From: Dehalococcoidia bacterium
Lineage (GTDB): Bacteria > Chloroflexota > Dehalococcoidia > SHXV01
Length of the DNA stretch: 57,068 bases
Direction: 5' to 3'
Assembly (NCBI GenBank): GCA_009693105.1
Contig: SHXV01000003.1
Location: forward strand, 1-57,068
Notes under the pieces: generated by a model
Databases searched by the model: none
Told to the model about the DNA's origin: nothing
Seen by the model: only the letters and a program-made list of their open reading frames with translations
In this document: one piece after another, positions 9,859 to 49,521 of the stretch
Layout of the letters: every line of letters begins with the position of its first letter
Position numbering within the stretch: position 1 is the first letter of the stretch
Translations under genes and position numbers: made by a program

Positions 9859-9894
9859 TACACGAAATCTTACCGCACGGCACGTGCATCTCCT

Positions 9895-10257
9895 ATGTCT
9901 GCGGCAGCGTTTCATGCCGACAATTCAGGCATGGAAAGCGGCGGCGCCCAGGCACTCACGCAGCGCTTCCCCGTTGACGTGATCAAGATCGACAAGTCAT
10001 TCGTGGACGCGCTCCGCTCCGATGAGTCGGGGTCCGCGGTCTCCCCGGCTATCACCAGCGCCATTATCAGCATGAGTGAGTCGGCAAAACTCCTGACGAT
10101 CGTGGAGGGCGTGGAGCAGGTGGAGCAGGTGGAGCGGTTGAAGGACCTGGGCTGCGAACAGGCGCAAGGATACTACTTTGGACGGCCGATGGATGCGGCT
10201 GCGATGGAAGCCTACCTTGCGGCGGGGCCGGGCGAGGTGTCAGAGATGGCGGCCTGA
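9895..10257 (+). pseudogene. C-terminal fragment of an EAL c-di-GMP phosphodiesterase
   Basis: This 120-residue frame has only the last third of an EAL domain: FPVDVIKIDKSFVDAL, then TIVEGVEQVEQVERLKDLGC and AQGYYFGRP. The EAL signature itself, the first metal ligands and any GGDEF or sensor part are missing, and the region before FPVDV is scrambled. It cannot hydrolyse c-di-GMP as it stands. It starts 37 bases after acnA, with no upstream sequence to hold the missing part, so a deletion between acnA and this remnant is likely. Confidence 0.7.
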
Positions 10258-10263
10258 GTCAGG

Positions 10264-11190
10264 CTACCAGCTCTTTCCGCCGTCACCGCTGCGGTAAAGG
10301 CGCCCATCGCTGTCGATTGCGAAGATCGTGCCGGGTTCCCTGGGCCAGGTAGCGAGCGAGGCGATGGGCCGGCGCAGCGCCAGCGTCTCCCAGCTCTTCC
10401 CCCGGTCGGCGGTTGCGTAGGCGCCGGCGTCCGTCCCCACGATAAGGCGGCCGTCGCCATCGATGGCGACGGCGTTGACGGCCAACGGGGAGTCCAGTAT
10501 GCGCTGCCAGAGCCGGCCATCGCTGGAGCCGACCCAGGCGCCGGAGCCGGGCACGGCGGCATACAACGTCTCCTGGCAGCAGACCCGCTGCGCGGCGGCT
10601 ACGGTCTTCGCCTCTCCCGGCAGGCTATCGCGCGGCATCCACGTAGCGCCGCTGTCATCGCTCTGGTAGAACGCGCCGGAGACGAGGTGGATGAAGAGCA
10701 CGCCGGTATCGGTGGGTGAGGCCAGGATGAAGCGGATATCGGACCCGGGGAGGGCGGCGCCGGGCAGGGGGCGCCATGTTCTACCACCGTCTTCGCTGCG
10801 CTCCACCATGCCGCTGCCGGCGGCGTACAGCGTGTCCGGCGCCGTGGCGTCGGCGGTGATGGATGTCGCGTTCCAGCCGGGGCGGTCCAACAGCACCTGC
10901 CAGGACAGGCCACCATCGCGGCTCACTCGTAGCCGGTCACCCTCCAACGCGTACAGCGTGCGCGGATCGGCCGGGCTGGTGAGCAGGGTGCGGACGGTAC
11001 CGGCGTCAAAGCGGTGGATAACGGCTCCAGGGCTGGACGTTGGGCGGAACACGGAGACGAGGACGGCGGCCAGGAGTAGAGCCGCGATGGCGAGGAAGAA
11101 GACGGCGTCTCGGGAGCCGATGGTTAGGCGGGACCACCGTCGCCGGGGGGCGAACTCCGTGCTGCTCACTTTGCTTGCTTCACCGGCCAT
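10264..11190 (-). CDS. Membrane-anchored BNR/YCF48-like beta-propeller protein
   Basis: This 308-residue protein has a basic cytoplasmic N-terminus, one transmembrane helix (VFFLAIAALLLAAVLVSVF, about residues 29-47) and a series of BNR-type repeats outside. The Asp-box motifs are SRDGGLSW, SEDGGRTW, SDDSGATW, TADRGKSW and SGDGGKSW. The last one ends the protein. Such propellers resemble sialidase/YCF48 photosystem assembly factors but lack catalytic residues, so a binding or scaffold role at the outer face of the membrane is the most that can be said. It converges with the EAL fragment and is divergent from the broken antiporter. Confidence 0.7.
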   Translation of the reverse strand: MAGEASKVSSTEFAPRRRWSRLTIGSRDAVFFLAIAALLLAAVLVSVFRPTSSPGAVIHRFDAGTVRTLLTSPADPRTLYALEGDRLRVSRDGGLSWQVLLDRPGWNATSITADATAPDTLYAAGSGMVERSEDGGRTWRPLPGAALPGSDIRFILASPTDTGVLFIHLVSGAFYQSDDSGATWMPRDSLPGEAKTVAAAQRVCCQETLYAAVPGSGAWVGSSDGRLWQRILDSPLAVNAVAIDGDGRLIVGTDAGAYATADRGKSWETLALRRPIASLATWPREPGTIFAIDSDGRLYRSGDGGKSW

Positions 11191-11258
11191 GGGCGTTGCG
11201 AGACCTCCTGGCTGGTAGTATACGCGTCACGGCTAGAGGCCGAACCGTGTGACGGCCG

Positions 11259-12972
11259 ATGGAAACCCAGAGCGAGATACTCCGCGCCCTTGTGATTATC
11301 ATCACGGCGGCGGCGGCAGGCGGCATGCTGGCTAGCTTGGTGCGCCTGCCCGCCATCCTCGGCTACCTTCTGGCGGGGGTTGTCGTGGCCCAGGTCCTGC
11401 CGGGAGGGGAGATCGATCCCTCACAGGTGCGGGACATAGCGGAGCTGGGGGTGGCGCTGCTCCTGTTCACACTCGGGTTGCAGTTCTCCTTCTTCAAGTT
11501 CAGCGGCGTCCGCAGGGCGGCGATCATCGGGTGGATCGCCCAGATTACGCTCACGATCGCGCTGGGCGTGCTGCTGGGCGGCGCGCTGGGGTTCGGACGC
11601 ACGGGGTCGCTGGTGCTGGGCTCCGCGATGGCGCTGAGTTCAACGATGGTAGCGCTCACCCTCATGGACCCGCGCAACGAGGTCTCCACGCTGCACGGCC
11701 GGATGCCCCTCGGCGTCCTGTTGGTGCAGGATCTGGCGGTGGTGCCGCTGGTCATCCTCCTCACGACGCTGGCCGGTGGCTCCCAGGACAACCTGCCGGT
11801 GGAGTTCGGGCTGGCCGCCGTGGAGGCCGCTGGGCTGCTGCTGGCAGCCTACCTCCTGGGCTGCAGGGGGCTGCCGTGGTTGCTGCCCCGGGTGGCGCGT
11901 CGCGGGTTCCCACGAACTCTTTCTCCTCACCATCCTCACGCTGGCGCTGGGACTGGCCGCGGGCAGCTAGGCGCTGGGGCTTTCGATCGCACTGGGGGCG
12001 TTCCTGGCGGGGCTGGTGATAGCAGAATCGGAGTTCAGCTATCGCACGCTATCCGAAGTGCTGCCCCTGCGGGACGTCTTCGCCACGGTGTTCTTCGTTC
12101 TCGATGGGGATGCTGGCGGACCCGGGCGTGCTGATGGACCACCCGGTCCAGGTTGCCGTCGTTGCCGCGGCGATCGTCGGCGGCAAGTTCTTCCTCTCCG
12201 CGGGGCCGCTCGCGCTGCTGGGGCTGCCCCTGCGCACGGCCATCCCGGCAGGGCTGCTGCTGGCGCAGTCGGGCGAGCTCTGCTTCCTCCTAGCGCAGAT
12301 GGGGCGGAATGAGGGCCTGATCAGCGATGACCTCAGCTCGGTCATCCTCATGGTTTCGCTCGCCAGCATCGTGATCAGCCCCTTCCTGGTGCAAGCGGTG
12401 CCGCGGATCAACGGGGCGCTTACGGCGGCGCCGGGACTGTGGCAGCTGTTCCAGGAGTCGGACGTGATCGAGGCGCGCGTCGATGAGCGGTCCCTGCAGG
12501 GGCCAACGTGGTCGTCTGCGGCTACGGGCGCGTGGGGCGAGAGCCGGTGATGGAGCTGTAGCGCGAACACATCCCCTGCGTGGTGATCGAACAGAACCCC
12601 TACCTGATCCATCGGCTCCGGGAGAACGGCGTGTCCTACATCTACGGGGACGCGGCGAACGAATCGGTGCTGTCCGCCTGTCGGCTGAGTGAGGAGCGTC
12701 TCCTCGCGATTACGCTGCCAGACCCGGCGGCGACGGCGTACATCATCTCCTTCGCGCGCCCGGCCAATCCGGCGCTCGACATCCTTGTGCGTGGACACGC
12801 GGTGGAGGACCTGGATACGCTGCGAGCGGCAGGGGCGACGGAGGTGGTGCACCCGGAGTTCGAGGATTCGCTGGAGTTCATCCGGCACACGCTGGCCCGC
12901 TACAGCCGCGATCCGGAGGAGTTACGGGGACGGCGGGACGCCATGCGCCGGGACTTCTACCGCCGGCCCTGA
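11259..12972 (+). pseudogene. Degraded CPA2 (KefB-like) cation:proton antiporter with TrkA-N domain
   Basis: The first 210 residues are an intact antiporter start (LPAILGYLLAGVVVAQVLPG, then LLLFTLGLQFSF). The frame then shifts near 11895, has an in-frame TAG at 11968-11970, shifts near 12100, shifts again near 12500, and meets a second in-frame TAG at 12559-12561. All parts remain recognisable: ALGLSIALGAFLAGLVIAES, FSAGPL-type helices, the nucleotide-binding VVVCGYGRVG, and a TrkA-N-like tail to 12972. Three indels plus two stops argue for real decay of a recently working gene. It would have exported K+ or Na+ under control of its Rossmann domain. Confidence 0.8.
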
Positions 12973-12977
12973 GCCGC

Positions 12978-13799
12978 TTATGTCCGCTCGCCCCGCTCCG
13001 GAAGCGCGCGGGTGATGCGCTGGTTCTCCCGCGCCCGCTGGATGGCGTAAGACGGGCCGGATGCGTCTCCGGCGGAGGACAGGGGAGGGTTGTTCATCGC
13101 GTGGACGGCCTGGATGTGGGCGGCAAAGCCCTGCATGTCCTGCACCTGGTTGGCGGCGAACTTCAGCGTGCGCAGCCGGGCGGGATCGTTCGCGGCGACA
13201 CGGACGGCGTAGGCCATCGTCTCCTCATCGAGGCTCGCGTCCGGCAGGACACGGTTCACCAGCCCCAGGCGCTCTGCCTCCCGCGCATCGATGAAGCGGC
13301 CCTCAAACAGCAGTTCCTTGGTCTTGCGCACGCCGATGTCCCAAGGGATGGAGAAGTACTGGAACTGGACGCCGAGGAACTGGGCGGTCTCCGCAGCGAA
13401 GATGACGTCCATGGCGGAGGCGATCATCCAGCCGCCGTAGATGCAGTAGCCCTGCACGGCGGCGATGGTGGGCTTGGGGAGGTTGCGCCAGCGCAGCGTC
13501 CGGTCCACGAACAGATCGACGCCGAGGCGGAAGCGCAGCGCCATATCGTCGCCGCTGAAGGGGCTGGGAGCGGTATCGGCCAGTTCTTCCGGCGTGCCCA
13601 GGTCGTGGCCGGAAGAGAAGGCATCGCCCTCGCCCCGCAGGACGATGACCCGCACGCCCGGATCGTCGACGGCGCGGGTGAAGGCGTCGTCCATCTCCCC
13701 CAGCATGCGGCGGCTCTGGGCATTGCGATACCGGGGCCGGTTCATGCTGATCCGGGCGACCCGATCGCTAACGTCATAGAGGATATCGTGGTAATCCAT
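12978..13799 (-). CDS. Enoyl-CoA hydratase/isomerase family protein
   Basis: This crotonase-fold enzyme of 274 residues acts on an acyl-CoA thioester, typically adding water or moving a double bond. Oxyanion-hole segments are FSSGHDLG and AAVQGYCIYGGW. The later parts show FEGRFIDAREAERLGLVNRV, a family hallmark. I start at 13799 because CCGGGGCGG precedes it and MDYHDILYDVSDRV is a typical start; 13823 is possible. It is the last gene of the long catabolic operon and follows the cupin gene by 81 bases. The substrate is unknown; the adjacent CoA-transferase is likely to make its CoA ester. Confidence 0.88.
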   Translation of the reverse strand: MDYHDILYDVSDRVARISMNRPRYRNAQSRRMLGEMDDAFTRAVDDPGVRVIVLRGEGDAFSSGHDLGTPEELADTAPSPFSGDDMALRFRLGVDLFVDRTLRWRNLPKPTIAAVQGYCIYGGWMIASAMDVIFAAETAQFLGVQFQYFSIPWDIGVRKTKELLFEGRFIDAREAERLGLVNRVLPDASLDEETMAYAVRVAANDPARLRTLKFAANQVQDMQGFAAHIQAVHAMNNPPLSSAGDASGPSYAIQRARENQRITRALPERGERT

Positions 13800-13880
13800 A
13801 TCCGCCCCGGAGATACCCCCCATAGCTAACGGCCAGGTTCCTGCGAGTGGCCCTCGCTTCTCCTTCACGCGCCCATCCCG

Positions 13881-14240
13881 TTAGTCTTCCAAGTTACGCA
13901 CCGCGGAGCCGGGCACGGTGATTGTGATGTGCGAGAAGTCATGATCCTCGCCCGCACCATGCCAGTGCTTCTCCCCGGCCGGACTGAACACGATATCCCC
14001 GACCTCCACGATCTGCCGATACCCGTCGGTTGCCACGATTCCGCTCCCGCCCGTGACGATCAACACCTGGTCGCAATCGTGGTCATGCCATTTGCTACGG
14101 TTGCCGGAAGGGAAGTTCACGATGCTCAGGGAAAAATCCTTACTCTCGCTGACCAACGCCTGTCGGGTAATCCCGTCGCCGACATAGAGCGGGCTTGCCG
14201 ATGATTCCCTCGCTGTGTCCTGCATGCGCTTGATGTCCAC
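13881..14240 (-). CDS. Small cupin-domain protein
   Basis: This 119-residue protein is a single cupin barrel. The metal-binding pattern is WHDHDCDQVL (His52, His54, with Gln58 where Glu is usual) and later GDIVFSPAGEKHWHG (His92, His94). Loss of the Glu ligand is common in non-oxygenase cupins, so it may be an isomerase, a binding protein or a regulator rather than a dioxygenase. It lies 45 bases after the fused CoA-transferase gene in the catabolic operon and is the smallest member of that set. Confidence 0.8.
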   Translation of the reverse strand: MDIKRMQDTARESSASPLYVGDGITRQALVSESKDFSLSIVNFPSGNRSKWHDHDCDQVLIVTGGSGIVATDGYRQIVEVGDIVFSPAGEKHWHGAGEDHDFSHITITVPGSAVRNLED

Positions 14241-14285
14241 TGGCGCCTCCTGATGCCCTTCGTCCGCTGCGATGGTGGTGGAGAT

Positions 14286-16733
14286 TTAGTCGGCTGTGGG
14301 CACCGGCTGCACGCGTAACAGCGCTTCGATCTCCGGGGCTGAGAGTCCGATCTCCCGCAACACTGATTCCGTCTGCTCGCCGAACGGAACTGCCGGCTCA
14401 GCGCGCGCCGGTGTCATCGAGAAAGTGACTGGCGGGCCCTGGCGCATCATGCGCCCCATACCCGGGCGATCCGTCATCACGATAAAGCCGTTACTCCTGA
14501 CGGTCTCATCCATAAGCATGAAGTCGTCCGGACGGATCTTGTCCGCGCGGGCAGCCGGGACGCCGTAATCCTCGAAGTGTCGTACCCAGTCGTCTGCTGT
14601 CCGCTCGGCGAGGACGAGGGTAATCCACGCGATGAGTTGGTCGTCATGAACAAGCCGGGCCTCGCCGGTAGCGAAGCTGTCCTCTCGTAGCCACTCACTC
14701 CTGCCCAGGGCTGTGCAGAGCGCTTCCCACTCTTCCTCCAAAGGGCATGTGATGAACAGCCACCCCTCCCTTGTTGCGTACATGCGATTGAGCGCGTGCG
14801 TCCCCCGCTGATTCCGATCGAGCGCCCGGCGCTCCGGCTTCCCCTTGTAACGGAGGAAATCGTCCGAGCATATATAGCAGTTGCTCATGAGCATGGTCGT
14901 CTCGACGTACTGGCCCTCGCCCGTGCGATCCTTGTGGTAGAGGGCGAGCGCGAGGGCTGTGGCGACTCCGATCGCGGCGGTGACATCCGGCGAGCCCTCA
15001 TTCGCCGCTGCCATCGCCGCGCTCGTCTTCGTGATCTCTTCAATCGACATTGGCGCATCGTTTGGGGGCGGCTCGTTTCCTGCGCCCAGCTGCCAGAGGG
15101 CGCCGCCGCTCAGAGCGCCGCCAATCGGGTGGAAAGCGGCGCGGCCAGCACCCGGGCCGGACGACCCGTAGGAGCCGGCGTAGAGGTAGATGATGTTGCG
15201 GTTGATTTTCCTCACCGTCTCGTAGTCGAGGCCAAGCCGGTTCGGGGCCGCGCCACGCATGTTGTGCATGATGGCGTCCGCCTTGGCTATCAGCCTTGTG
15301 AGCACTTGCCGCGCCGCATCCGTCTTCAGATCGAGGACGACACTTTCCTTTCCCTGCAGCGTGCGCCCACGACCGGCCGTCATCTTCCGGTGCTCGTCGC
15401 CCGAGGGCGGCTCGATCTTGATCACCCGCGCGCCAAGGTCCGCGATCAGCGAGGTGCCGACCGGAGCGGCCAGCCATGACGAGAAGTCGAGGACGACCAT
15501 GCCTTCGAACGGGTGCTTCGGCAGGTTCCCGTTTGGCACCGCCGCCCGCGCGGTGCCATTCTTCGCCGTGGCCATGGCTAGCGCTTCCTCGGTGTGCTGG
15601 CCGAGGAGGGGCGCACCCGAGCGAACCCGCGATGGCGTTCCGGCGAACCTGACGAGCGGCGCGATCTGTTTGGTCGGCCCGACCGACCGGTCATCGACAT
15701 CGATGACGCCGCCGTTGTGGACGGTCTGCGCATGGTCCATCGCCTGCTGCGTCGTGAGGAAGCGATCACCACCGACGTCGTTGGCGGCGAAGATGGCGAG
15801 CCATTCGTCCAGTGTGCGCGTGAGCATCGCCTCATAGATCATGCGACGCAGTTCCGCCTTGTCCTCGCGGGTCGCGAAGACGAAGGGCGCGCCCTTGAAG
15901 CGCTCGTCCTCGTAGATGTGACGGAGGCCGATCGCCTTCATCCAGTTGGGGAAGAGCCGGGCGGCAAGACAGGTGATCTGAATCCATTGCCCGTCCCTGC
16001 AGCGAGCCACGAGGTAAGGGAGATTGATGTCCGCGCCCGGTGGTGGAGTGCCTCCCGTCGCGCCCGTGAGCCCGGCAAGGTCTATCGGCTCTATAAGGCC
16101 CAACTCGACCTGGCGAGCGAGCGCGCTGCGGGAGTCATAGAGGCTCAGCCCCTGATAGAGGCTGGTCTCCACCCGCTGGCCCTGCCCTGTTCTGTTCCGG
16201 ACACGCAACGCGGCAACGATGCCTTGGACCGCAAAATTGGCCGCGCCCCAGCTGCCGTTTGGCCGCGCCCGGTAGATTGGACCGTTGCCCTGCCGGCCCA
16301 GGAGGACGCTGAGATACTCCCCTGCCCTGGCGGCGATCAGTCCTTCGTAAGGTTTGAGTTGGGCGTACGCTCCCTTTGAGCCAAGGCCGGTGATCGAACA
16401 GTAAACGACGCTTGGATTCTGGGCGGCAACGGCGTCGTAGCCAATCCCAAGACGGTCGGCGGTCCCCGGAAGGAAGTTCTCTACGACAACGTCAGCATTG
16501 GAAGCCAGCTGGAGCGCTGCGCTCCGCCCCTCCGCTGTATCGAGGTCAAGGACGACACTGCGCTTGCCGCGGTTCCACATAATCCACGCAGCCTCGCTGC
16601 GCCATGGATCGCCGCCAGGAGGCTCCACCTTGGTTACATCCGAGCCGTTGTCCGCCAAGAGCATTGTCGCGACGCTGCCGGCCATACCCTGGCTAAAGTC
16701 GACGACGCTGACGCCTTCCAATATCTGTGCCAT
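14286..16733 (-). CDS. Fused double class III CoA-transferase (CaiB/BaiF x2)
   Basis: This 815-residue protein holds two complete class III CoA-transferase units in tandem, joined by an Ala/Gly/Pro-rich linker near 390-410. The first starts GVSVVDFSQGMAGS and shows VTKVEPPGGDPW; the second starts GMVVLDFSSWLAAP and shows VIKIEPPSGDE. Aligned to the nucleophile Asp169 of formyl-CoA transferase, the first unit has Ser161 and the second Asp583 (residue 174 of its unit). So one half is probably catalytic and the other structural. It should move CoA between a donor thioester and an acid. It lies 17 bases after the DUF35 gene in the operon, starting at the ATG directly before MAQILEG. Confidence 0.88.
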   Translation of the reverse strand: MAQILEGVSVVDFSQGMAGSVATMLLADNGSDVTKVEPPGGDPWRSEAAWIMWNRGKRSVVLDLDTAEGRSAALQLASNADVVVENFLPGTADRLGIGYDAVAAQNPSVVYCSITGLGSKGAYAQLKPYEGLIAARAGEYLSVLLGRQGNGPIYRARPNGSWGAANFAVQGIVAALRVRNRTGQGQRVETSLYQGLSLYDSRSALARQVELGLIEPIDLAGLTGATGGTPPPGADINLPYLVARCRDGQWIQITCLAARLFPNWMKAIGLRHIYEDERFKGAPFVFATREDKAELRRMIYEAMLTRTLDEWLAIFAANDVGGDRFLTTQQAMDHAQTVHNGGVIDVDDRSVGPTKQIAPLVRFAGTPSRVRSGAPLLGQHTEEALAMATAKNGTARAAVPNGNLPKHPFEGMVVLDFSSWLAAPVGTSLIADLGARVIKIEPPSGDEHRKMTAGRGRTLQGKESVVLDLKTDAARQVLTRLIAKADAIMHNMRGAAPNRLGLDYETVRKINRNIIYLYAGSYGSSGPGAGRAAFHPIGGALSGGALWQLGAGNEPPPNDAPMSIEEITKTSAAMAAANEGSPDVTAAIGVATALALALYHKDRTGEGQYVETTMLMSNCYICSDDFLRYKGKPERRALDRNQRGTHALNRMYATREGWLFITCPLEEEWEALCTALGRSEWLREDSFATGEARLVHDDQLIAWITLVLAERTADDWVRHFEDYGVPAARADKIRPDDFMLMDETVRSNGFIVMTDRPGMGRMMRQGPPVTFSMTPARAEPAVPFGEQTESVLREIGLSAPEIEALLRVQPVPTAD

Positions 16734-16750
16734 GCTCTTGGCGCTCCGAC

Positions 16751-17167
16751 TCAGGCCTGGCGCGGCTGGAATTTGGGGAGGGTGATCGTGTCTGTCACGT
16801 CGTCCCAGACGACCTCGACCGCCATGCCGACTTTCACCTGGTCAGGGGGAACGTTAATGACGTTGCTTAGCATCTGGTAGCCGCCATCGATGTCGATGAT
16901 CGCGACGACGTACGGCACCTCGAAAGAGGGCGTCTGGGGCCGCCAGACAGTCGTATAGCTATAGACCTTTCCCGTGCCGCTGGATGGCACCCACTCCAGT
17001 GTCTCCGTGAAGCAGTAGCGGCAGAAATCCTGCGGAATGAAGATGAGCTTTCCGCAGGAGGTGCACTTCTGCACCGTCAGCTCATGGCGGAGGCAGGCGT
17101 CCCAGAAGGGCTGGGAGATCGGCGTTGGATGAGGGACTGGTAACTGCGGCTTTGCTTCTATCGTCAT
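16751..17167 (-). CDS. DUF35 Zn-ribbon/OB-fold acyl-CoA-binding protein
   Basis: This 138-residue protein has the DUF35 pattern: an N-terminal helix, a four-Cys zinc ribbon (Cys35, Cys38, Cys49, Cys52 in CTSCGKLIFIPQDFCRYC) and an OB-fold (GTGKVYSYTTVWRP, then PYVVAIIDIDGG). DUF35 proteins partner thiolase-fold enzymes, for example in steroid side-chain retro-aldolases and in HMG-CoA synthesis, where they bind the CoA ester. The thiolase gene is directly upstream, 19 bases away, which fits a complex. I use the ATG at 17167 (GGAGG 11 bases upstream) instead of a longer frame that would overlap the thiolase. Confidence 0.88.
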   Translation of the reverse strand: MTIEAKPQLPVPHPTPISQPFWDACLRHELTVQKCTSCGKLIFIPQDFCRYCFTETLEWVPSSGTGKVYSYTTVWRPQTPSFEVPYVVAIIDIDGGYQMLSNVINVPPDQVKVGMAVEVVWDDVTDTITLPKFQPRQA

Positions 17168-17186
17168 GAGAACGCGCCTCCAAGAA

Positions 17187-18335
17187 CTAGGGGCGCTGGT
17201 CACCGACCAGCAGTACGTCCGTATACAGGGCGCCCGCCCCGCCGTTGTTCGTGATCGCGACATGGGCGTTCGGCACTTGATTCACGACTGAATCGCCGCG
17301 CACCTGGCGCACAGCCTGGATGATGCGCTGGAGTCTCTGGACATTTCCGCTGTGGCTGAAGGACATCAGCCCACCATCGGTGACGATGGGGAACTTACCG
17401 CCGGGCTGGATTGCTCCCGACTCCACGAATGGTCCGCCTTCGCCCTGTCCGCAGAACCCGAAGACCTCCAGCATGCGGATCACTTCCCAGGAGAAGTTGT
17501 CGTAGAACTCACAAACGTCAACGTCATTTGGAGTGATGCCCGCCATCCGGAAGGCTCGCTTCGCTGCACCGACGCCGGTTTCGTCGAGCATGTCGTAGGA
17601 CGGCGGATGCTGGTAGGCAGGCCCTTCCCCTTCCATTCCCCCACCGAGGACGTAAACCGGAGGCTTCGGTCGATCCTGGGCGCGGTCCGCCCGCGTGAGG
17701 ATCATCGCGCCTCCGCCCTCCGAGGTCATCGCACAGTCCAGGAGGTGATAGGGATCGGCGATCATTCGGGAGTTCAGGACATCCTCAGGCGTGAAGGGAC
17801 CGCGCCCGTAGTAGACCGCGCCCGGGTTGATGTTCCCGTTGTTGCGAATGGTCGCCGCGACGGTGGCCAACTGATGGGGAGTCGTGCCGTACCGTTCCAT
17901 GTGTCGACGCGCAACGAGCGCGAATTCCGCAGCCGTGAACAGACCCCAGCACTCGACGAATTCGTTGGAAGGCCGGGTCCAGGGAGCAGTCGATTCCCGC
18001 TGAGTATAGACGCCCGCCGAGCCGCTCGCGATTAGGACCGTGTTTACGATGCCGTTGGAAATCGCGGCCGCCGCCTCCAGCACTCCCGACACCCCGACAA
18101 GGCCGCCGTTGGCCGCCCAGGTGTGTCGCAATCCCGCTTCGTATCCGAACGCCCTGGAGCCGATGCCGCCAATACACAGGCCATCGATATCGCTCAGCGT
18201 CATTCCAGCGTCGTCCAGGGCACCTCGGATCGCCTCGACCGTTATCGTTCTCGAGGTGTGCCCTTCGAGGGAGCGAGCTTGTTTGGTGTTGTACACGCCT
18301 ACTACGGCGACATCGTGCAACGGTATATTTCCCAA
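17187..18335 (-). CDS. Thiolase-fold protein lacking the catalytic Cys (SCP2/Ltp2-like)
   Basis: This 382-residue protein has the SCP2-type thiolase fold: TVEAIRGALDDAGMTLSDID, then DVCEFYDNFSWEVIRMLE, and the C-terminal HVAITNNGGAGA. The usual Cys-Ala-Ser-Gly nucleophile motif is replaced by GVSG at residues 81-84, and the second catalytic Cys, normally beside the last GG, is Thr/Asn. A His remains in SFSHSGNV. Claisen thiolysis by the normal mechanism is therefore unlikely. With the adjacent DUF35 gene this resembles Ltp2/DUF35 retro-aldolases that cleave 3-hydroxyacyl-CoA side chains. That role is inferred by family resemblance, not shown. Confidence 0.85.
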   Translation of the reverse strand: MGNIPLHDVAVVGVYNTKQARSLEGHTSRTITVEAIRGALDDAGMTLSDIDGLCIGGIGSRAFGYEAGLRHTWAANGGLVGVSGVLEAAAAISNGIVNTVLIASGSAGVYTQRESTAPWTRPSNEFVECWGLFTAAEFALVARRHMERYGTTPHQLATVAATIRNNGNINPGAVYYGRGPFTPEDVLNSRMIADPYHLLDCAMTSEGGGAMILTRADRAQDRPKPPVYVLGGGMEGEGPAYQHPPSYDMLDETGVGAAKRAFRMAGITPNDVDVCEFYDNFSWEVIRMLEVFGFCGQGEGGPFVESGAIQPGGKFPIVTDGGLMSFSHSGNVQRLQRIIQAVRQVRGDSVVNQVPNAHVAITNNGGAGALYTDVLLVGDQRP

Positions 18336-18353
18336 AGTCCTACTCCTGCTCGG

Positions 18354-19562
18354 CTAACCGGAGACTCTCGAACTGGCAGCGCCCGCGGCCGGGGTTTCGG
18401 TGATCGCGCGGTCCAGGTCGAGCCCAAAGTATTCCGCCGGGTTCTCAAGGAGGATCTTCCGCTTCAGGCTTTCCGGGACGTCGTCAAAGATCATCTGAAG
18501 CCATCTCCGCGAATGGGGGAAGGAGCCGACGGAATGGGGGAAGTCGCTTCCCCACATCAAGTTCTCCGCCGGCAGATGATCGCGCAGCTTCATCGCCAGA
18601 GGATCTCGAATAAAGCTAAACAGGAAGTGCTTCTTCACATACTCGCTCGGCAGCATGGGGAGGTCCGCCTTGAGGGCCTTTTTATAGAGCTTGTAGCTGT
18701 CGTCCATCATAAAGAACGCCTCTGGCATCCAGCTTGCGTTCGTCTCCGCGATGTATATCCGCAGGCTCGGGAGTCTCTCGAACACGCCCGAGCCGATCAT
18801 CTGGGCAATGGCGTACACCCGCCCCGACGAGCGGATGGAGATCGTGGTGGCGAACGGTCGGCCAGCCGATCCAGCGACGCTGAGCGGGCCAGACAGTGCG
18901 CCAAAGTTGCCGTGAGGGGATAGCGCCACTCCCAGATCGAGCGCCGTCTCCCAGAACCGGTCATCCTCAGGCTTCGGACTCCCTCCCCCGTTCGGGAACT
19001 GGTGGAAGCTGACCGACCGAAGACCGAGCTCCTTGCAACGCTTCAGCTCCGCGACTGCATCGTCGATGCCGGACACGGGGATAACACCGTTTCCGATAAG
19101 CCGATCCGGGGCGACAGCACAATAGTCCTGGGAAAGGAACGTGTTGTACGCCTGGACCATGGCGAGATAGGCATTGTGGTCCGATATCCCTTCGACAAAG
19201 CGCGTGGCATACACCGGCGGGAAGAGCACTTCGCAATCGATCCCGTCGGCGTCCTGTTCTCGAAGACGTTGAAGGGCTGGGCCTGCGCCCGGTGCCGGCG
19301 TGCCGTCCGGATTGAAATACGAATCGTTCATCATCTTGGCGTCGGCCTCAGTGGCGCCCGGCGCAAGCGTCTTGGCCCCGGTGATATTGTTGCCGTTATG
19401 GAGCAACGGCTGTCCTTCTACGATCCAGCCTTCGCCGCCCTCCGCGAACTTGATGAGACGGGGAGCGCGATCCCTGTACCGCGTTGGCACATATTTGACC
19501 CACGAATCGGGCGGTGTCTCCACGTGGCCATCGGCGGAGATAACCTGGTATTTGCGCGACAT
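18354..19562 (-). CDS. Amidohydrolase (PF04909 TIM-barrel), copy 2
   Basis: This 402-residue protein belongs to the amidohydrolase/decarboxylase group that includes ACMSD-type enzymes. It starts ISADGHVETPP, where the DxH takes the place of the usual HxH metal site, and ends with WGSDFPHSVGSFPHS, which supplies the catalytic Asp. Hydrolysis or decarboxylation of a small ring acid is plausible; the exact reaction is unknown. It is very similar along its length to the protein at 22385-23590, including EQDVDGIDCEVLFPPVYAT-type segments, so the two are a recent duplication. Residues in the middle (SPHGNFGALSG versus APHIGFGGRSG) differ and may change substrate choice. Confidence 0.86.
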   Translation of the reverse strand: MSRKYQVISADGHVETPPDSWVKYVPTRYRDRAPRLIKFAEGGEGWIVEGQPLLHNGNNITGAKTLAPGATEADAKMMNDSYFNPDGTPAPGAGPALQRLREQDADGIDCEVLFPPVYATRFVEGISDHNAYLAMVQAYNTFLSQDYCAVAPDRLIGNGVIPVSGIDDAVAELKRCKELGLRSVSFHQFPNGGGSPKPEDDRFWETALDLGVALSPHGNFGALSGPLSVAGSAGRPFATTISIRSSGRVYAIAQMIGSGVFERLPSLRIYIAETNASWMPEAFFMMDDSYKLYKKALKADLPMLPSEYVKKHFLFSFIRDPLAMKLRDHLPAENLMWGSDFPHSVGSFPHSRRWLQMIFDDVPESLKRKILLENPAEYFGLDLDRAITETPAAGAASSRVSG

Positions 19563-19671
19563 GAGCTTGTCCTTTCCCCTACTTGAGCGACTCCAACCCT
19601 GTCCTCAACGTCGGTATCGCTCGCCTACCAGCACCGGGCGGGGAGGCCGAGGGCCGATCATGCCCCATCGA

Positions 19672-20577
19672 TCAGTGGCCGATGTAGCTCTTCATGAAAC
19701 GACGCTGGTCATCGTGGTTAGGCTGCCAGCCATCGAAGAGGCTTGCGCCATCGAGCGTGTACACCGGTCGGTTGAGCTCGTAGAGCAGAGGCAAGCTCTG
19801 GATAACGCGGCTCGTCAGCACTTTCGGGTCGCCGCTGCTGAGCGCCAGCGCCGCTTCCACGAACGTCTCCATTGGCTCCGACCCTTGCGGCGGAGATCCC
19901 ACTGAGAGCGCGTTCGGTGTAACGATGCCGCCATTGGGCGCGAGGGCATTCACGGCGATGTTGTCCGCGTACAGATCCTGCGCCGCGCCGGTGCAGATAC
20001 GGTCGATGAAGGCTTTCGTGCCACCGTAGAGGCTTCCTCCGCCTACCCGTCGGTAGTTGCCGAGCTCCCGCCCCGGGTGAGGCCGCGGGAAGGCCTGACT
20101 GGAGGAAATCATCGTGATCCAGCCGGCGCCCTGTTCGCGCATGCCGGGGATGACTGCTCTTGCGAGGTCCCAGCCACCCCAGACGTTCACCGTAACACTG
20201 CGGAAGAACCAGTCCGCCGTCATCTCCGCGAAGGGAATGCGGCTGTCCGCCCCCCACTCCCGAGGGGCTGCGGCGCAGTGGAAGAGGATGTCCGGCGAGC
20301 TGCCGAAGGCATCGATAATTTGACGGACGATGTCGCGCTTGTCGTAATTGAGGTCGCCGATGTCAGCGCGGACCGGGATCGCGGCACCGCCAAGTGCGGC
20401 GATCCGCTGGAGGCCCTCCTCGAGCGTCCCGGCCAGGTCTTTGCGGCGACCCGCTTCGTCCCGTCCGATGAGTGCGACCTTCGCTCCCTCGGCGGCGAAG
20501 CGCACCGCGATCGCCTGGCCGATGCCGCGACTCGCGCCGGTGATGACTGCAACTCGCCCTTTCAAAGCTCGTCCCAC
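19672..20577 (-). CDS. Short-chain dehydrogenase/reductase
   Basis: This 301-residue NAD(P)-dependent oxidoreductase has the Rossmann TGASRGIG at residues 13-20 and the catalytic Tyr184-x3-Lys188 in YGGTK. Ser at about 159 in ISSSQ completes the triad. The usual NNAG is altered to HCAAAP. A C-terminal extension after TLDGASLFDGW is typical of dehydrogenases for hydroxyacyl or hydroxy-ring substrates. It sits third in the catabolic operon, 24 bases after the binding-protein gene and 109 before the second amidohydrolase. It probably oxidises an alcohol intermediate; the substrate is not known. Confidence 0.88.
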   Translation of the reverse strand: MGRALKGRVAVITGASRGIGQAIAVRFAAEGAKVALIGRDEAGRRKDLAGTLEEGLQRIAALGGAAIPVRADIGDLNYDKRDIVRQIIDAFGSSPDILFHCAAAPREWGADSRIPFAEMTADWFFRSVTVNVWGGWDLARAVIPGMREQGAGWITMISSSQAFPRPHPGRELGNYRRVGGGSLYGGTKAFIDRICTGAAQDLYADNIAVNALAPNGGIVTPNALSVGSPPQGSEPMETFVEAALALSSGDPKVLTSRVIQSLPLLYELNRPVYTLDGASLFDGWQPNHDDQRRFMKSYIGH

Positions 20578-20601
20578 AAGGTTTCCTTCCTACCTATTGC
20601 G

Positions 20602-22308
20602 TCATTCGTCCAGCCACACCTGGGAGAACTGCCAGGCGTAGTTACTGAGGAAGTAGCCCGGGGCCGTCCAACTCCTGATGCTCTTCTTCGCGCCGAACCA
20701 GACGTTGTTGCGAACGGTGGGCGAGCCGGGAAGTTGCTGGTCGTCAAGGAGGTAGCGTTGCAACTCCGCGAAAATCTTACGCCGCTCCTGAAAATCAAGA
20801 GCCGACGCCTGCTTCTCGATGAGATCGTCAGTCTTTTTGTCGAACCAGACGGACGAGTTGTTTGTCGCATCCTTATGATAGTGAGCCCACAATGGGTCGT
20901 CCAAGATTAACCCGCCGAGACCGCCATTCGATATCGCCGAAAGCTGGAGCCCCTTTTCCTTTGCCTGGGCGGCGGTAGGATAGCCAGCCACGGTCAGGTC
21001 AAGCTCGATCTTGAACCCAAGCTCGCGCTCCAGCATGCCCTTGAGCGCAATGGCCTGATCCCGAAGCACTTTCTGCGGACTAGTCGGGGACTGCCACATC
21101 TTTAGCGGCGTCTTTGCCGCATCAACGCCCGTTGCCGCGAGCATTTTCTTGGCCTCCGCGACATCTTCGTTGTGGTTCTTGCGATAGCCGGGCTTCCCGT
21201 CCCATTCCTTCTGCCCCAGGTAAACTGAGGATCGACAGCCGAGGATGAAGACGGCGCAACCGAAGCCGTCACCGACGACTTGGACCAGGGCTTCCCGGTC
21301 AATGGCGCGGTGCATGGCTTGACGGACCCGCGCATCATTCGTCGGGGCCAGCTCAACGTTCATGGCCAGGTGGCTGGCTGCCGTTATCAGGTCCTCCGTG
21401 CTGCCTAACTGGTGACTGGATTGAAATGCCTTCTGCTCGAGCGTGTCGACGAGGCCGATATCGATCTGGCCGGTGCGCAGCGCCGCTAACTGGGCGGACG
21501 GATCGGAAATCCAAATAATGGTGGCCTTGTCGAGATAGGGGAGGCCCCCCGGATCGACGTCGTAGGACGGATTGCGCCGGAAGCTCAGCGAGACACCCGG
21601 GCGCAGGGTGCTGATGTCGGGAATAAACGGACCGCTGCCGTAGAAGGCTTCCGCCACCGACATGTCAGGGAACTTCTGGATCGCCTCGCGCGGAAGCACA
21701 ATTCCCGCATGGGGATGCCAGAGCCAGGACAGGAAGTTGGCATCAGGAGATTTGAATTTCACACGAACCGTATACTTGTCGACCGCTTCGTACGTGTTCA
21801 CGAGGCGAAATGCGCGCGCGATAGTGAACGTGGGGTCGTTGGGCGTGCGAACTCGCTCCATCGACGCAACGACGTCCCCGGAATCGATCTCTCTACCAGC
21901 GGCTGCCGATTCCTTCTGGAAATGCGTGCCTTTCTTGAGATGGATCAGCATCGTGGTCGGATCCGGGAACTCCCACTTCTCTGCGAGGCCGGGAAGTGCT
22001 GTTCCAGTCTTCCAGTCCGCGCGGAGAACCGTGTTACCCACCAACGACCAGGCGTCACAGCTGCTCAAAGAAATGATCTTCTGAGGATCCTTGAGACTGG
22101 GCGCACTGGCGGTTGCGCTCCCTGATTGCATTATGATCGATCCGCCACGCTTCGGCTGCGTCGAAGCCTGCGGTTCGGCGGAGCTGGGCGCGTCGTCATC
22201 CCCGCAGCCGACGAGCGCGAGTGTGGTGCCCCCAACCGCCATGGCGCTCATCAATTGCCGTCGTGTTAACGGCGTCTCCCAGATAGTGTCCGCCCTGTCC
22301 TGCCCCAT
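20602..22308 (-). CDS. Peptide/nickel-type ABC substrate-binding protein, orphan
   Basis: This 568-residue protein belongs to the DppA/OppA family (SBP_bac_5). The start has a twin-arginine-like TRRQLM, a hydrophobic stretch and a lipobox LVGC followed by acidic GDDDAP, so a lipid-anchored export product is likely. Later signature segments include VRQAMHRAIDREALV. No permease or ATPase is near, so it must use a distant transporter or act as a stand-alone binding or sensing protein. Its place second in the operon points to capture of the operon's substrate, but that is inference. Local GC falls here: positions 20821-20880 have 27 G/C in 60. Confidence 0.85.
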   Translation of the reverse strand: MGQDRADTIWETPLTRRQLMSAMAVGGTTLALVGCGDDDAPSSAEPQASTQPKRGGSIIMQSGSATASAPSLKDPQKIISLSSCDAWSLVGNTVLRADWKTGTALPGLAEKWEFPDPTTMLIHLKKGTHFQKESAAAGREIDSGDVVASMERVRTPNDPTFTIARAFRLVNTYEAVDKYTVRVKFKSPDANFLSWLWHPHAGIVLPREAIQKFPDMSVAEAFYGSGPFIPDISTLRPGVSLSFRRNPSYDVDPGGLPYLDKATIIWISDPSAQLAALRTGQIDIGLVDTLEQKAFQSSHQLGSTEDLITAASHLAMNVELAPTNDARVRQAMHRAIDREALVQVVGDGFGCAVFILGCRSSVYLGQKEWDGKPGYRKNHNEDVAEAKKMLAATGVDAAKTPLKMWQSPTSPQKVLRDQAIALKGMLERELGFKIELDLTVAGYPTAAQAKEKGLQLSAISNGGLGGLILDDPLWAHYHKDATNNSSVWFDKKTDDLIEKQASALDFQERRKIFAELQRYLLDDQQLPGSPTVRNNVWFGAKKSIRSWTAPGYFLSNYAWQFSQVWLDE

Positions 22309-22384
22309 TCGGTGTTCCTCCTTCCAAATAAACCCCGCAACAACGATCGGCGCTGCCCAGCTGAGCCGAGTAGAAGGTCCGAAC

Positions 22385-23590
22385 TTAGCTATCCCGAGGA
22401 TGGTCAGGTGACCTAGCGGCGGCGCTGCCCGGCGTCTCCGTCAACGCTTTAGTTGGGTCGAGGTGGAAGAACTCGACTGGGTTATCGACGAGAATCCTCC
22501 GCTGAAGCTCTGCGGGGACGCCCTCGAAGATGCGGTCGAGCCACCCACGCGAGTTTGGAAAGGAACCGACGGAGTGGGGGAAGTCACTTCCCCACATGAG
22601 GATCTCGGCCGGAAGATGTTCGCGTAATGTCATGGCCAGCGGGTCGCGGATGAAGCTGAACCGGAAGTGCTTCTTGACGTACTCGCTGGGCAGCATCGTG
22701 AGGTTGATGCCGTAGAAGTTCTTGTAGAGCCGGTACCCGTCATCCATGAAGAAAAGGGCTTCCGGCAGCCAACTCGCGTTCGTCTCCGCCATGTAGATGC
22801 GAAGTTCCGGAAATCGATCGAAAACGCGCGCCTCGAGCAATTGGACGATGTTGTAGGCCCGAACACCGGCTCGCCCGGCGACTGACTCCGTGAAGGACCG
22901 GAAGCTCGGATTAAACGTTCCCGACCGTCCTCCAAATCCGATATGGGGTGCGAGAGCGATCCCGAGCTCTAGCGATTTCTCCCAGAAACGGTCGTCCTCG
23001 GGCTTCGGCGCCTCACTGCCGTTCGGATACTGGCGGAAACAGACGGCCTTCAGGCCCAGCTCCTGGCAGCGCTTCATCTCAGCGATCGCGTCATCGATAC
23101 CGGTGACCGGAATAACGGCGCTACCGATGAGACGATCGGGCGCCACGGAGCAGTAATCCTGAGCGAGAAAGGTGTTGTACGCTTGGACCATCGCGAGGTA
23201 GGCTTCACGGTCCATCTTTTCTACAAACGCGGTAGCGTACACCGGTGGAAACAGGACCTCACAATCGATCCCGTCCACATCCTGTTCGCGCAGCCGCTGG
23301 ATCGAGGGTCCGGCGCCCGGTGCGGGGGTGCCGTCGGGGTTGTAGTAAGACTCACCGCGGTATCGGGCGTTGCCTTCCGCCGCTTTTGGCCCAAGCGTAC
23401 CCGTGGGCGGAGTGATGTTCGCACCATTGTGCAGCATCGGTTGGCCCTCGACGAGCCAGCCTTCACCCCCGTCCTCCACCTTGATCAGGCGTGGCGCTCG
23501 ATCGCGGTACTGCTTGGGAACGTACTTCACCCAGGCTTCGGGGGGTGTTTCGACGTGCCCATCGGCCGAGATCACTGTGTAGGTTCGCAT
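22385..23590 (-). CDS. Amidohydrolase (PF04909 TIM-barrel), copy 1
   Basis: This 401-residue protein opens the catabolic operon. It has ISADGHVETPP, EQDVDGIDCEVLFPPVYAT and WGSDFPHSVGSF, the same hallmarks as the copy at 18354-19562. It should be a metal-dependent hydrolase or decarboxylase of the ACMSD-like group. I start at the ATG before RTYTVISADG because it matches the start of the second copy. A longer frame with a GTG start reaches 23695, but that would place the promoter inside the gene. Promoter and dyad elements are described separately. Confidence 0.86.
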   Translation of the reverse strand: MRTYTVISADGHVETPPEAWVKYVPKQYRDRAPRLIKVEDGGEGWLVEGQPMLHNGANITPPTGTLGPKAAEGNARYRGESYYNPDGTPAPGAGPSIQRLREQDVDGIDCEVLFPPVYATAFVEKMDREAYLAMVQAYNTFLAQDYCSVAPDRLIGSAVIPVTGIDDAIAEMKRCQELGLKAVCFRQYPNGSEAPKPEDDRFWEKSLELGIALAPHIGFGGRSGTFNPSFRSFTESVAGRAGVRAYNIVQLLEARVFDRFPELRIYMAETNASWLPEALFFMDDGYRLYKNFYGINLTMLPSEYVKKHFRFSFIRDPLAMTLREHLPAEILMWGSDFPHSVGSFPNSRGWLDRIFEGVPAELQRRILVDNPVEFFHLDPTKALTETPGSAAARSPDHPRDS

Positions 23591-23810: not shown

Positions 23811-23885
23811 TGGCTCCCCGACGAGGACTCGAACCTCGAACCTAGCGGTTAACAGCCGCTCGCTCTACCATTGAGCTATCGGGGA
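23811..23885 (-). tRNA. tRNA-Asn (anticodon GUU)
   Basis: The minus strand reads a complete cloverleaf: acceptor TCCCCGA paired with TCGGGGA, discriminator G and an encoded CCA at 23811-23813. The anticodon stem-loop GCGGC-TGTTAAC-type loop gives anticodon GTT. The T-arm is GGTTCGA-type. It is the last of four minus-strand tRNA genes spaced over 900 bases. Confidence 0.93.
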
Positions 23886-23899
23886 GTATGCAACCGTGC

Positions 23900-23973
23900 T
23901 GGCTGGCGAGCCAGGGCTCGAACCTGAACTAAGGGCTTCAAAGGCCCCTGTGCTACCATTACACCACTCGCCA
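23900..23973 (-). tRNA. tRNA-Gln (anticodon UUG)
   Basis: The acceptor is TGGCGAG against CTCGCCA, with the U1-A72 pair typical of tRNA-Gln, and CCA is encoded at 23900-23902. The anticodon stem GGGGC/GCCCT encloses CTTTGAA, so the anticodon is TTG. The T-arm contains GGTTCGAGCC. Confidence 0.92.
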
Positions 23974-24020
23974 TCGGGCGCCCATTCAGGTCCGCTTCCC
24001 GGTGCTGTGTCTGCCGGTTG

Positions 24021-24109
24021 TGGTGCCGAAGGCCGGGTTCGAACCGGCACGAGGGTTGCCCCTCAACAGTTTTTGAGACTGTCGCGTCTGCCTGTTCCGC
24101 CACTTCGGC
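24021..24109 (-). tRNA. tRNA-Leu (anticodon CAA)
   Basis: This 89-base gene has the long variable arm of class II tRNAs. The acceptor GCCGAAG pairs with CTTCGGC, the discriminator is A and CCA is encoded at 24021-24023. The anticodon stem ACAGT/ACTGT encloses CTCAAAA, so the anticodon is CAA. Confidence 0.92.
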
Positions 24110-24656
24110 CGGAGGCAAAGAGCCTTCACCCTCCGCGCTAGTATAGCGCCGGTGGTGCGGAAGCGTCCACAGCGCAGACGCGTGTCGGTGGTGTATCGGC
24201 CACGCTTAGACGGGTGTGGTCTCGCCCTCGTCCGGCTCGACGATGCCGTAGCTGTCCTTCCAGGCGCGGCCCAAGCGGGCACCCACCCGGTGAGATTCGC
24301 GGGACCGTGGCGCTGGCCCAGACGGCTCCCGCAGCCCCTCCGGCCGCTGCTCGCCCTGGTTCCGGGGGCTTCCTGCGGGTGGGGGGCTCCAACCGCTCCG
24401 CTCTCGCCACGCTGGCGGGGGTAGGGATCCTGGCCGCCGTAGGGGGCCCATCTTCGTCTTTCGATCCAGGCGGACGATGACCCCCTAGGCGGGGCCCGTC
24501 CATCAACTCACGATGTGGGCGGCGGAAGAAGCGCCTCGAGATACCACCTGCCCGCCCGAATATCCAAGGAGCTGCCGGGGAGCGAGAACCTCACCGGCAG
24601 CTCTTTATGAATCGGGGTGACCCCTGTGTCGGTGCTTGGTCGATGGGACGGTGAGA
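24110..24656. other. 547-base stretch without a supported gene
   Basis: No convincing gene is seen between tRNA-Leu and tRNA-Gly. Open frames exist on both strands but are Pro/Arg-rich without domain character. One minus-strand frame (24206-24451) ends in HRVGARLGRAWKDSYGIV followed by an acidic tail, which looks more protein-like than the rest and may be the end of a lost gene. A hairpin at 24570-24602 is annotated separately. Confidence 0.4.
24570..24602 (+). terminator. Hairpin, possible terminator
   Basis: AGCTGCCGG and CCGGCAGCT form a perfect 9-bp stem with a 15-base loop, followed by CTTTATG. The same end, AGCTCTTTATG, follows the helicase terminator at 55491. No plus-strand gene is seen directly upstream, so the source transcript is unclear. 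Confidence 0.45.
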
Positions 24657-24731
<75 letters not shown>

Positions 24732-33720: not shown

Positions 33721-34950
33721 TCACCAGATCACCCGCGCCGCTTCCAGGCGGGCGATCTCCTCGCCGGACAGGCCGAGCAGGCCGCCGAACACGCGCTCGT
33801 TATCGGCGCCCAGCCGGGGGGCGGCCCGCCGGAACGTGGGCGACGTGACGCTGAACAACGCCGGGGAACCGTCGCTGCGGACGCTGCCGCCTTCTTCCGC
33901 CGGTACGTCGACGAAGAAGCGGCGATGGCGAAGCTGGGGGTCGCGCTCCACCAGGTCATCGGCCAGTTGCACCGCGCCTGCGGGGATGCCGGCGGCCTGG
34001 AGCGCCGCCATCGCCGCTTCCGGCGTGCGCGAGCGTGTCCAGGTGGCGATGCGCCCATCGATCATCGCGGCGCCGGCCAGCCGTCCGGCGAGGGAGGCCA
34101 GCGCGGGTTCGCCGCCCAGCGCTTCGTCGCCCAGCACGGCGCACAGGCGGGCCCACGTCTCGTCGTCGGGGACGGCGATGGCCAGCCAGCGGTCAGCGCC
34201 GCAGCAGGGGTAGACGCCGCGCGGCGCCGCCTCGCCGTACGGCGCCCGGTTGCCCGCCGGCTCAGCGATGTGGCCGTTCACCGTGGCGTCCAGAAGGGCG
34301 GGTCCGAGCGTGGCAGCCAGCGCCTCCAGCTGAGAAACGTCCACGTGCTGGCCCTGGCCGGCGGGGCCGGTGGCGTCGCGCTGGTGCAGCGCCGCCACGA
34401 CCGCCAGGGCCGCGGTGGACCCAGCCACATGATCGGCGTAGGGATAGCCGGGACCGGCGGGCGGGCCGCCGGGCTCCGCGGTCAGCGCCGTCAGCCCGGC
34501 GAGCGCCTGAAGCGTGGGGCCAAAACTAACGTAGTCCTTCCAGGGGCCGCTGTGCCCCATGCCAGACAGCGACAACAGGACGATGTCCGGCCGCACGACG
34601 CGGAGCGCCTCGTAGCCGATGCCCCAGTTTTCGAGGACACGGGCACTGAAGTTCTCGATCACCACATCGCAGCGGGCGATAAGCCGGCGAAGGAGCGCTC
34701 GCCCCTCTTCCGTACTCAGGTTCAGGGTAAGGCCCAGCTTGTTCCGGTTCCAGGTCCGATAATAGGGGTCATCCGCATCCTCCTCCCGCACTCCCGTGGC
34801 GCGGGACTGGACCTTGATCACTTCCGCGCCCAGGTCCGCCAGCATCCGCGTGCAGTAGGGGCCGGCCAGCACCCAGGTGAGGTCCAACACGCGCACGCCG
34901 GTCAGCGGGCCGTCAGCGAGCGTGGCGGCCGGCTTCGCCGGCCCTACCAC
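33721..34950 (-). CDS. Class III CoA-transferase subunit with catalytic-type Asp
   Basis: This 409-residue protein has the CaiB/BaiF fold: GVRVLDLTWVLAGPYCT, LGAEVIKVQSRATG, DVVIENFS and GQGQHVDVSQLEA. Asp173 lies in YADHVAG at the place of the nucleophile Asp169 of formyl-CoA transferase. It should form an aspartyl-CoA intermediate and pass CoA between acids. It overlaps the next CoA-transferase gene by seven bases; that partner lacks the Asp, so the two may form one heteromeric enzyme. The substrate is unknown. Confidence 0.9.
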   Translation of the reverse strand: MVGPAKPAATLADGPLTGVRVLDLTWVLAGPYCTRMLADLGAEVIKVQSRATGVREEDADDPYYRTWNRNKLGLTLNLSTEEGRALLRRLIARCDVVIENFSARVLENWGIGYEALRVVRPDIVLLSLSGMGHSGPWKDYVSFGPTLQALAGLTALTAEPGGPPAGPGYPYADHVAGSTAALAVVAALHQRDATGPAGQGQHVDVSQLEALAATLGPALLDATVNGHIAEPAGNRAPYGEAAPRGVYPCCGADRWLAIAVPDDETWARLCAVLGDEALGGEPALASLAGRLAGAAMIDGRIATWTRSRTPEAAMAALQAAGIPAGAVQLADDLVERDPQLRHRRFFVDVPAEEGGSVRSDGSPALFSVTSPTFRRAAPRLGADNERVFGGLLGLSGEEIARLEAARVIW

Positions 34951-36056: not shown

Positions 36057-36330
36057 CACCCTTTCGTAAGCTGCGAATCCTTTGACACGGCATCCCGTTC
36101 CCACGTAGAGTACGCCTGCCCGCGCTCCCGGAGAACAGGGCATCCGTGGTTTCGGAGAGGCACACCAGCTTGCCCCTAATCGACCCAGCGGCACCCACCC
36201 TGAGCCCATGGTACCGTACTGAAGCCGGGAGTTCGTTTCGCCTCCCCAATCGTTTCCTTCGCCCCGCATTCGCCCCCTGACAGTTCGCAGCGCATCTGAT
36301 TGCGTCTAACCGGTCCGGAGAGAACCGAGC

Positions 36331-49516: not shown

Positions 49517-49521
49517 CGTCG

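Follow-up and report, generated by a model that had tools for sequence, protein, structure and literature searches.

A nine-gene operon of a Dehalococcoidia bacterium with two predicted dinuclear oxygenases and a putative retro-aldolase pair

Introduction

The Pfam family PF04909 comprises hydrolases, decarboxylases and a recently defined group of oxygenases, the amidohydrolase-related dinuclear oxygenases (AROs; PMC10811679, PMC10401708, PMC7782822). In the ARO AibH2, the metal ligands are D25, H27, H211, E265, D337 and H340 (PMC10811679, PMC10401708, PMC7782822). AibH1H2 and SfbO are Mn/Fe or Fe2 AROs. The two PF04909 subunits of AibH1H2 are encoded in one operon, and AibH1 is mononuclear and structural. 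A Rieske partner gene is found near AibH2 and SfbO. An additional carboxylate (E313 in PtmU3, D342 in AibH2) is a feature of known AROs and not an established mark of the family; the exchange D342A lowered the activity of AibH2 (PMC10401708).

PtmU3 (PDB 6omp) is a diiron hydroxylase of platensimycin/platencin biosynthesis. It acts on a diterpenoid-CoA, with hydroxylation at C-5 (PMC10127204), and was termed a beta-hydroxylase (PMC7782822). The conversion of the diterpene into platensimycin involves the loss of C4, C18 and C19 (PMC10391625). From the hydroxylation site and the lost carbons, we infer that the pathway fits a beta-hydroxylation followed by a retro-aldol cleavage. A second solved relative is DitZ from Rhodococcus rhodochrous (PDB 8uyr).

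Retro-aldol cleavage of steroid side chains is known from Ltp2 and Sal, which have a thiolase fold without the thiolase Cys. The Tyr of their YDxF motif is required and starts the cleavage, and both proteins pair with a DUF35 partner (PMC12329534), ChsH2 in the case of Ltp2 and Shy in the case of Sal. Here, we describe an operon in which genes for relatives of both kinds stand next to each other.

Results

The window analysed here (57,068 bases) is one entire contig of a Dehalococcoidia genome of 1.23 Mb in 55 contigs with an estimated completeness of 84%. A run of nine consecutive ORFs was found on the minus strand, from 23590 down to 12978. By Pfam and NCBIfam, the proteins belong, in the order of transcription, to Amidohydro_2, SBP_bac_5, SDR, Amidohydro_2, thiolase-like, DUF35, tandem CoA_transf_3, Cupin_2 and ECH_1. 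The nine minus-strand genes of a preliminary description and their families were thus confirmed. The intergenic gaps are 76, 24, 109, 18, 19, 17, 45 and 12 bases. Upstream of most start codons, an AGGAG-like ribosome site is present. The tight spacing described before holds, with a range of 12–109 instead of 17–109 bases; the last gap hinges on the start chosen for the ECH_1 gene. A convergent plus-strand ORF terminates at 12972, and therefore the operon ends there.

A promoter-like site (TTGTGA-16-TATACT, minus strand, 23669–23642) lies directly upstream of the first gene. Three such sites were found in the region, with 2.2 expected, and only this one is directly upstream of the operon. As the candidate matches at a chance rate, the single promoter assumed before is plausible but unproven for all nine genes. 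Further upstream and outside the operon, ARAGORN identified a cluster of four minus-strand tRNA genes instead of the three described (23811–24731; Asn(GTT), Gln(TTG), Leu(CAA) and Gly(GCC)). The first three are contiguous, and tRNA-Gly follows 550 bases further. Elsewhere in the window, a plus-strand ORF of 613 aa (46398–48239) has no Pfam match.

The first and fourth genes encode the Amidohydro_2 proteins AMH1 (22385–23590, 401 aa) and AMH2 (18354–19562). AMH1 has all six ARO metal ligands (D10, H12, H216, E269, D336 and H339), and AMH2 has the same six. Each ligand position is kept in 48–51 of 51 aligned proteins, and the positions are invariant across 30 diverse sequences. In sequence searches with both proteins, PtmU3 came first (E 7.5e-70 by profile) and DitZ second, at about 26% and 22% identity. 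The AlphaFold model of AMH1 had a pLDDT of 90 and a pTM of 0.90; its top Foldseek matches in the PDB were again PtmU3 and DitZ, followed by TruffO, AibH2 and SfbO, with decarboxylases including ACMSD ranking lower. PtmU3 is hence the closest solved structure to both proteins by sequence and to AMH1 by fold.

The decarboxylase ACMSD carries a His where AROs carry the Glu, and in the tree it falls outside the ARO group, which includes both window proteins. The ligand set, the tree and the fold ranking speak against an ACMSD-like decarboxylase identity. The earlier suggestion that the amidohydrolases open or decarboxylate a ring was not borne out, given the dinuclear ARO ligand set and PtmU3 and DitZ as the nearest solved relatives. 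AMH1 is a predicted dinuclear (Fe2 or Mn/Fe) monooxygenase, and, judging by ligands and fold, AMH1 and AMH2 would most probably hydroxylate CoA esters with O2 rather than open a ring by hydrolysis.

AMH1 and AMH2 are 68% identical and mutual nearest neighbours in the tree; judged by their sequences, the pair is a duplication within the lineage. Both keep the six ligands, unlike AibH1 in the two-subunit AibH1H2. At the extra carboxylate site of the secondary sphere, two residues after the last His, both have Val, which differs from E313 of PtmU3. This position is variable among the 51 relatives (E in 15, V in 13 and D in 13). Unlike the loci of AibH2 and SfbO, the operon has no gene for a Rieske or other reductase or a ferredoxin. 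Only two Rieske proteins were found in the recovered genome, both of housekeeping type (in the SUF operon and in a bc-type complex). A nearby Rieske or reductase gene is a search aid for AROs and not a strict requirement.

The thiolase-fold protein (17187–18335, TTG start) contains five Cys (54, 129, 201, 275 and 295). None is at a catalytic position, and an identity as an SCP2-type thiolase was rejected for this reason. The former label 'Cys-less thiolase' applies to the catalytic positions only. The protein has YDNF in place of HDCF, and thereby the Tyr of the YDxF motif, as well as the motif SFSH. The second acid residue differs: a His stands at Tyr344 of Ltp2 and an Asn at Cys304 of Sal. 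With this different second residue, His, the protein is to be seen as a relative of Ltp2 and Sal and not as a proven member. The DUF35 gene (16751–17167, ATG at 17167) follows 19 bases downstream. Its product is of the ChsH2 type, with a zinc ribbon and an OB fold (zf-ChsH2 and OB_ChsH2_C). We infer that the two proteins form a predicted retro-aldolase.

The next gene encodes a fused tandem family III CoA-transferase (14286–16733, 815 aa). In DddD, the catalytic-type Asp is present only in the second of the two CoA_transf_3 domains. The window protein has the same layout: two CoA_transf_3 domains are joined in one chain, and the catalytic-type Asp583 in a conserved NPD/SPD motif is present in the C-terminal half only and absent from the N half. 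In contrast to DddD, the operon contains no DMSP genes. We also considered KPYE as the site of the catalytic residue and dropped this reading, as the YfdW alignment puts the Asp further on. Fused family III CoA-transferases were found in 71 of the 393 genomes of the class. Two more pairs of family III CoA-transferase genes, both unfused, are present in the window at 33721–36269 and 48299–50739.

Both Glu of the hydratase site are missing in the crotonase-superfamily protein (12978–13868, alternative start near 13799). A Met stands opposite the first Glu of 4k29, and a visual comparison with the established hydratase motif showed no Glu at the second site. With neither catalytic Glu in place, the identity as an enoyl-CoA hydratase fails, and a simple spiral of hydration, oxidation and thiolysis is unlikely. 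In the small cupin (13881–14240), a weak similarity to the cupin (R)-mandelonitrile lyase was found (79 bits, cut-off 140). The SDR (19672–20577) has intact TGASRGIG and Y184xxxK motifs.

The second gene encodes an orphan family 5 solute-binding lipoprotein (20602–22308) with a Tat-like TRRQLM motif and the lipobox LVGC. Neither a permease nor an acyl-CoA dehydrogenase is encoded among the nine operon genes. There are ten SBP_bac_5 matches in the genome. Five are on contig C23, four of them as a tandem array of close paralogues. The other five (on C6, C16 and C45, and two on C39) are directly next to an ARO or to another such SBP. Counted as clusters, four of five adjoin an ARO, with a chance probability of ~1e-6 in a rough model of five independent clusters. 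The recovered genome shows no recognisable Opp/Dpp permease pair cognate to the operon SBP. The BPD-type permeases detected number just three, of which one belongs to an NMT1-type set of the window, and hence the operon SBP and its kin seem to have no dedicated channel. As the genome is incomplete, this is provisional. In the C23 array (7805–15154, locus L199), the four orphan lipoproteins keep the N-terminus DRADxIWERxLxRRQL, and no adjacent permease was recognised there.

The full nine-gene order was not found elsewhere, neither in 393 genomes of the class (queried with AMH1, the thiolase and the CoA-transferase) nor at nine named loci. In the literature searched, no description of the combination of amidohydrolase, thiolase, DUF35 and CoA-transferase was found. 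The earlier statement that no known pathway uses this exact set stands for the genomes and the literature searched, and the search for the same gene order in other genomes returned the nine-gene set here only. A core of four genes (ARO, thiolase-like, DUF35 and fused CoA-transferase) occurs in the same order at two other loci, L092 (contig G057:C8, 8904–14250) and L235 (G089:C91, 3940–9265). The two genomes represent two genera of another family, and the proteins are 26–37% identical to those of the window. The thiolase-like proteins of both loci have the full Ltp2 pair, i.e. YDHF and the equivalent of Tyr344.

Adjacent genes for an ARO, a thiolase and DUF35 were also found in Halioglobus, in another gammaproteobacterium and in three Pseudonocardia. 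The ARO ligands are present in these clusters of other phyla wherever the protein is complete, and the Pseudonocardia AROs beside thiolase and DUF35 group with DitZ in the tree. Within the class, DUF35 was found near 53 of 61 thiolase loci and an ARO within 1.5 kb of three, all three in the window genome. Relatives of the L092 ARO were without a thiolase alongside at 28 of 30 loci. The nearest homologues of the thiolase within the class (G089:C93, 63%; G260:C147, 60%) lack an adjacent ARO, meaning that the link between ARO and thiolase is not universal. A further locus of the window genome (L050, G000:C15, 5974–12458) encodes a thiolase-like protein with YDHG and the Tyr344 equivalent, DUF35 and two AROs, with two CoA-transferases nearby.

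The GC content of the operon is 62.5%, compared with 67–68% in the flanks. The value of 45% reported for 20821–20880 is exact and the dip at gene level is real, but equally low 60-mers exist outside the operon. The local GC is also low around 45831, in a gene of the glutamine synthetase family (44477–45895). At other places of the genome, the paralogues of the AROs and the SBP have a GC content nearly as low, mostly 0.60–0.64. For most operon genes, the genome encodes close paralogues (up to 68% for AMH, 60% for the SBP and 65% for the CoA-transferase). The 3′ end of tRNA-Asn is not repeated anywhere in the window, no att repeat was found, and none of the nine genes encodes an integrase. Gain by transfer at the tRNA genes, proposed earlier, was thus not supported, given the missing att repeat, the paralogues in the same genome and the low GC common to the ARO and SBP paralogues. 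The data agree better with an assembly within the lineage than with a recent transfer. At the end of contig G000:C1 (L047, 2225–2449), an SDR fragment is 81% identical to the operon SDR. It comes after genes for a thiolase (56%) and for an aldo/keto reductase and is cut at the contig end; L047 is a probable paralogous cluster.

Discussion

We give about even chances to the reading that the operon serves CoA loading, O2-dependent hydroxylation by the AROs and retro-aldol cleavage of an organic acid. The lipoprotein SBP would catch the substrate at the cell surface, and the tandem CoA-transferase, with its family III fold and the Asp, would put CoA on the acid. One or both AROs, which have the ligands and the fold, could then hydroxylate the acyl-CoA with O2, most likely at the position beta to the thioester, in analogy to PtmU3. 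The thiolase-fold/DUF35 pair, in which the Cys is missing and the YDxF Tyr is present, would split the beta-hydroxyacyl-CoA by a retro-aldol reaction into a ketone or aldehyde and a short acyl-CoA. The SDR, with its motifs intact, would oxidise a hydroxyl group, and the cupin and the Glu-less crotonase may contribute auxiliary steps. That the substrate is an organic acid poorly handled by ordinary beta-oxidation, e.g. a branched or alicyclic one, appears to us an evenly balanced proposition. Unlike in the Ltp2 and Sal systems, O2 and not a hydratase would supply the hydroxyl group, and no steroid gene set is present in the operon. Compared with PtmU3, the setting is a predicted catabolic operon with two ARO paralogues and an aldolase pair. 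From the scheme of import, activation and cleavage in the preliminary description, acid capture, the family III CoA-transferase and cleavage by the thiolase-fold/DUF35 pair are retained. Ordinary hydration, thiolysis and ring opening found no support, the former two as the crotonase has no hydratase Glu and the thiolase no catalytic Cys. Points against our reading are the Val at the extra carboxylate site of both AROs, the missing reductase or ferredoxin gene, the deviating second residue of the thiolase, the small number of thiolase loci of the class with a neighbouring ARO, and the absence of acyl-CoA dehydrogenase and permease genes from the operon.

Other readings were weighed against the same data. 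We consider it quite unlikely that the amidohydrolases hydrolyse or decarboxylate a ring and that hydration, oxidation and thiolysis follow, with an end step like that of benzoylsuccinyl-CoA thiolase. PF04909 does include ACMSD-type decarboxylases and hydrolases, and the true thiolase BbsAB is among the DUF35-thiolase pairs, but the ligands are those of AROs and not of ACMSD, the fold ranking agrees, and the active-site Cys and both Glu are missing in the thiolase and the crotonase. A non-serial arrangement, in which the AROs are oxidative and act apart from the aldolase, is rather doubtful. They could carry out an oxidative decarboxylation like LynB7, or take the free acid as substrate ahead of CoA loading, with the aldolase used for a different step; AibH2 uses free amino acids and LynB7 catalyses an oxidative decarboxylation (PMC7782822, PMC10127204). 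Several other AROs of the genome stand alone or with an SBP, without thiolase and CoA-transferase. The order of ARO, aldolase, DUF35 and CoA-transferase is, however, kept in two other genera, and clusters of ARO, thiolase and DUF35 exist in other phyla, which argues for action in series.

The genes could also be unrelated co-directional paralogues that serve no single pathway, as no second instance of the full gene order was found, several of the families are expanded in the class and partners shuffle among loci. We regard this as very improbable: the nine genes, most of them with ribosome sites, are spaced by 12–109 bases, the order of the four-gene core is conserved, and the SBP–ARO pairing is far above chance.

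If the oxygenase–aldolase route holds true, many environmental 'amidohydrolase' genes of the class are oxygenases, and metabolic models calling them hydrolases are wrong. It would also provide a testable O2-dependent route to break C–C bonds in branched or cyclic acids. Moreover, a large oxidative family would be added to those proposed for the use of resistant organic matter by Dehalococcoidia-type bacteria. In SAR202 and Dehalococcoidia, CaiB/BaiF CoA-transferases and oxidative enzymes are expanded and were proposed to act on recalcitrant organic matter (PMC5395668, PMC10444878). The families for which an expansion was published comprise FMN monooxygenases, enolases, dehydrogenases and CoA-transferases (PMC5395668, PMC10444878). 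A limited search of the SAR202 literature found no mention of a PF04909 or ARO expansion. More tentatively, and with somewhat less than even confidence, we propose an oxygenase–aldolase module that bypasses beta-oxidation, together with a radiation of AROs to 60–86 or more copies per genome in several lineages of the class, which would use them as a chief means to oxidise recalcitrant organic matter. The sampled PF04909 members had the ARO ligands, in a sample picked by similarity to the window proteins and not representative of all copies. The number of PF04909 matches was 15 in the window genome, at least 62 to 86 per genome in the families f6, f31 and f49 (genomes G089, G336, G220, G178, G281, G030, G005 and G057) and 1 in two complete genomes of the class of Dehalococcoides size (1.4–1.5 Mb).
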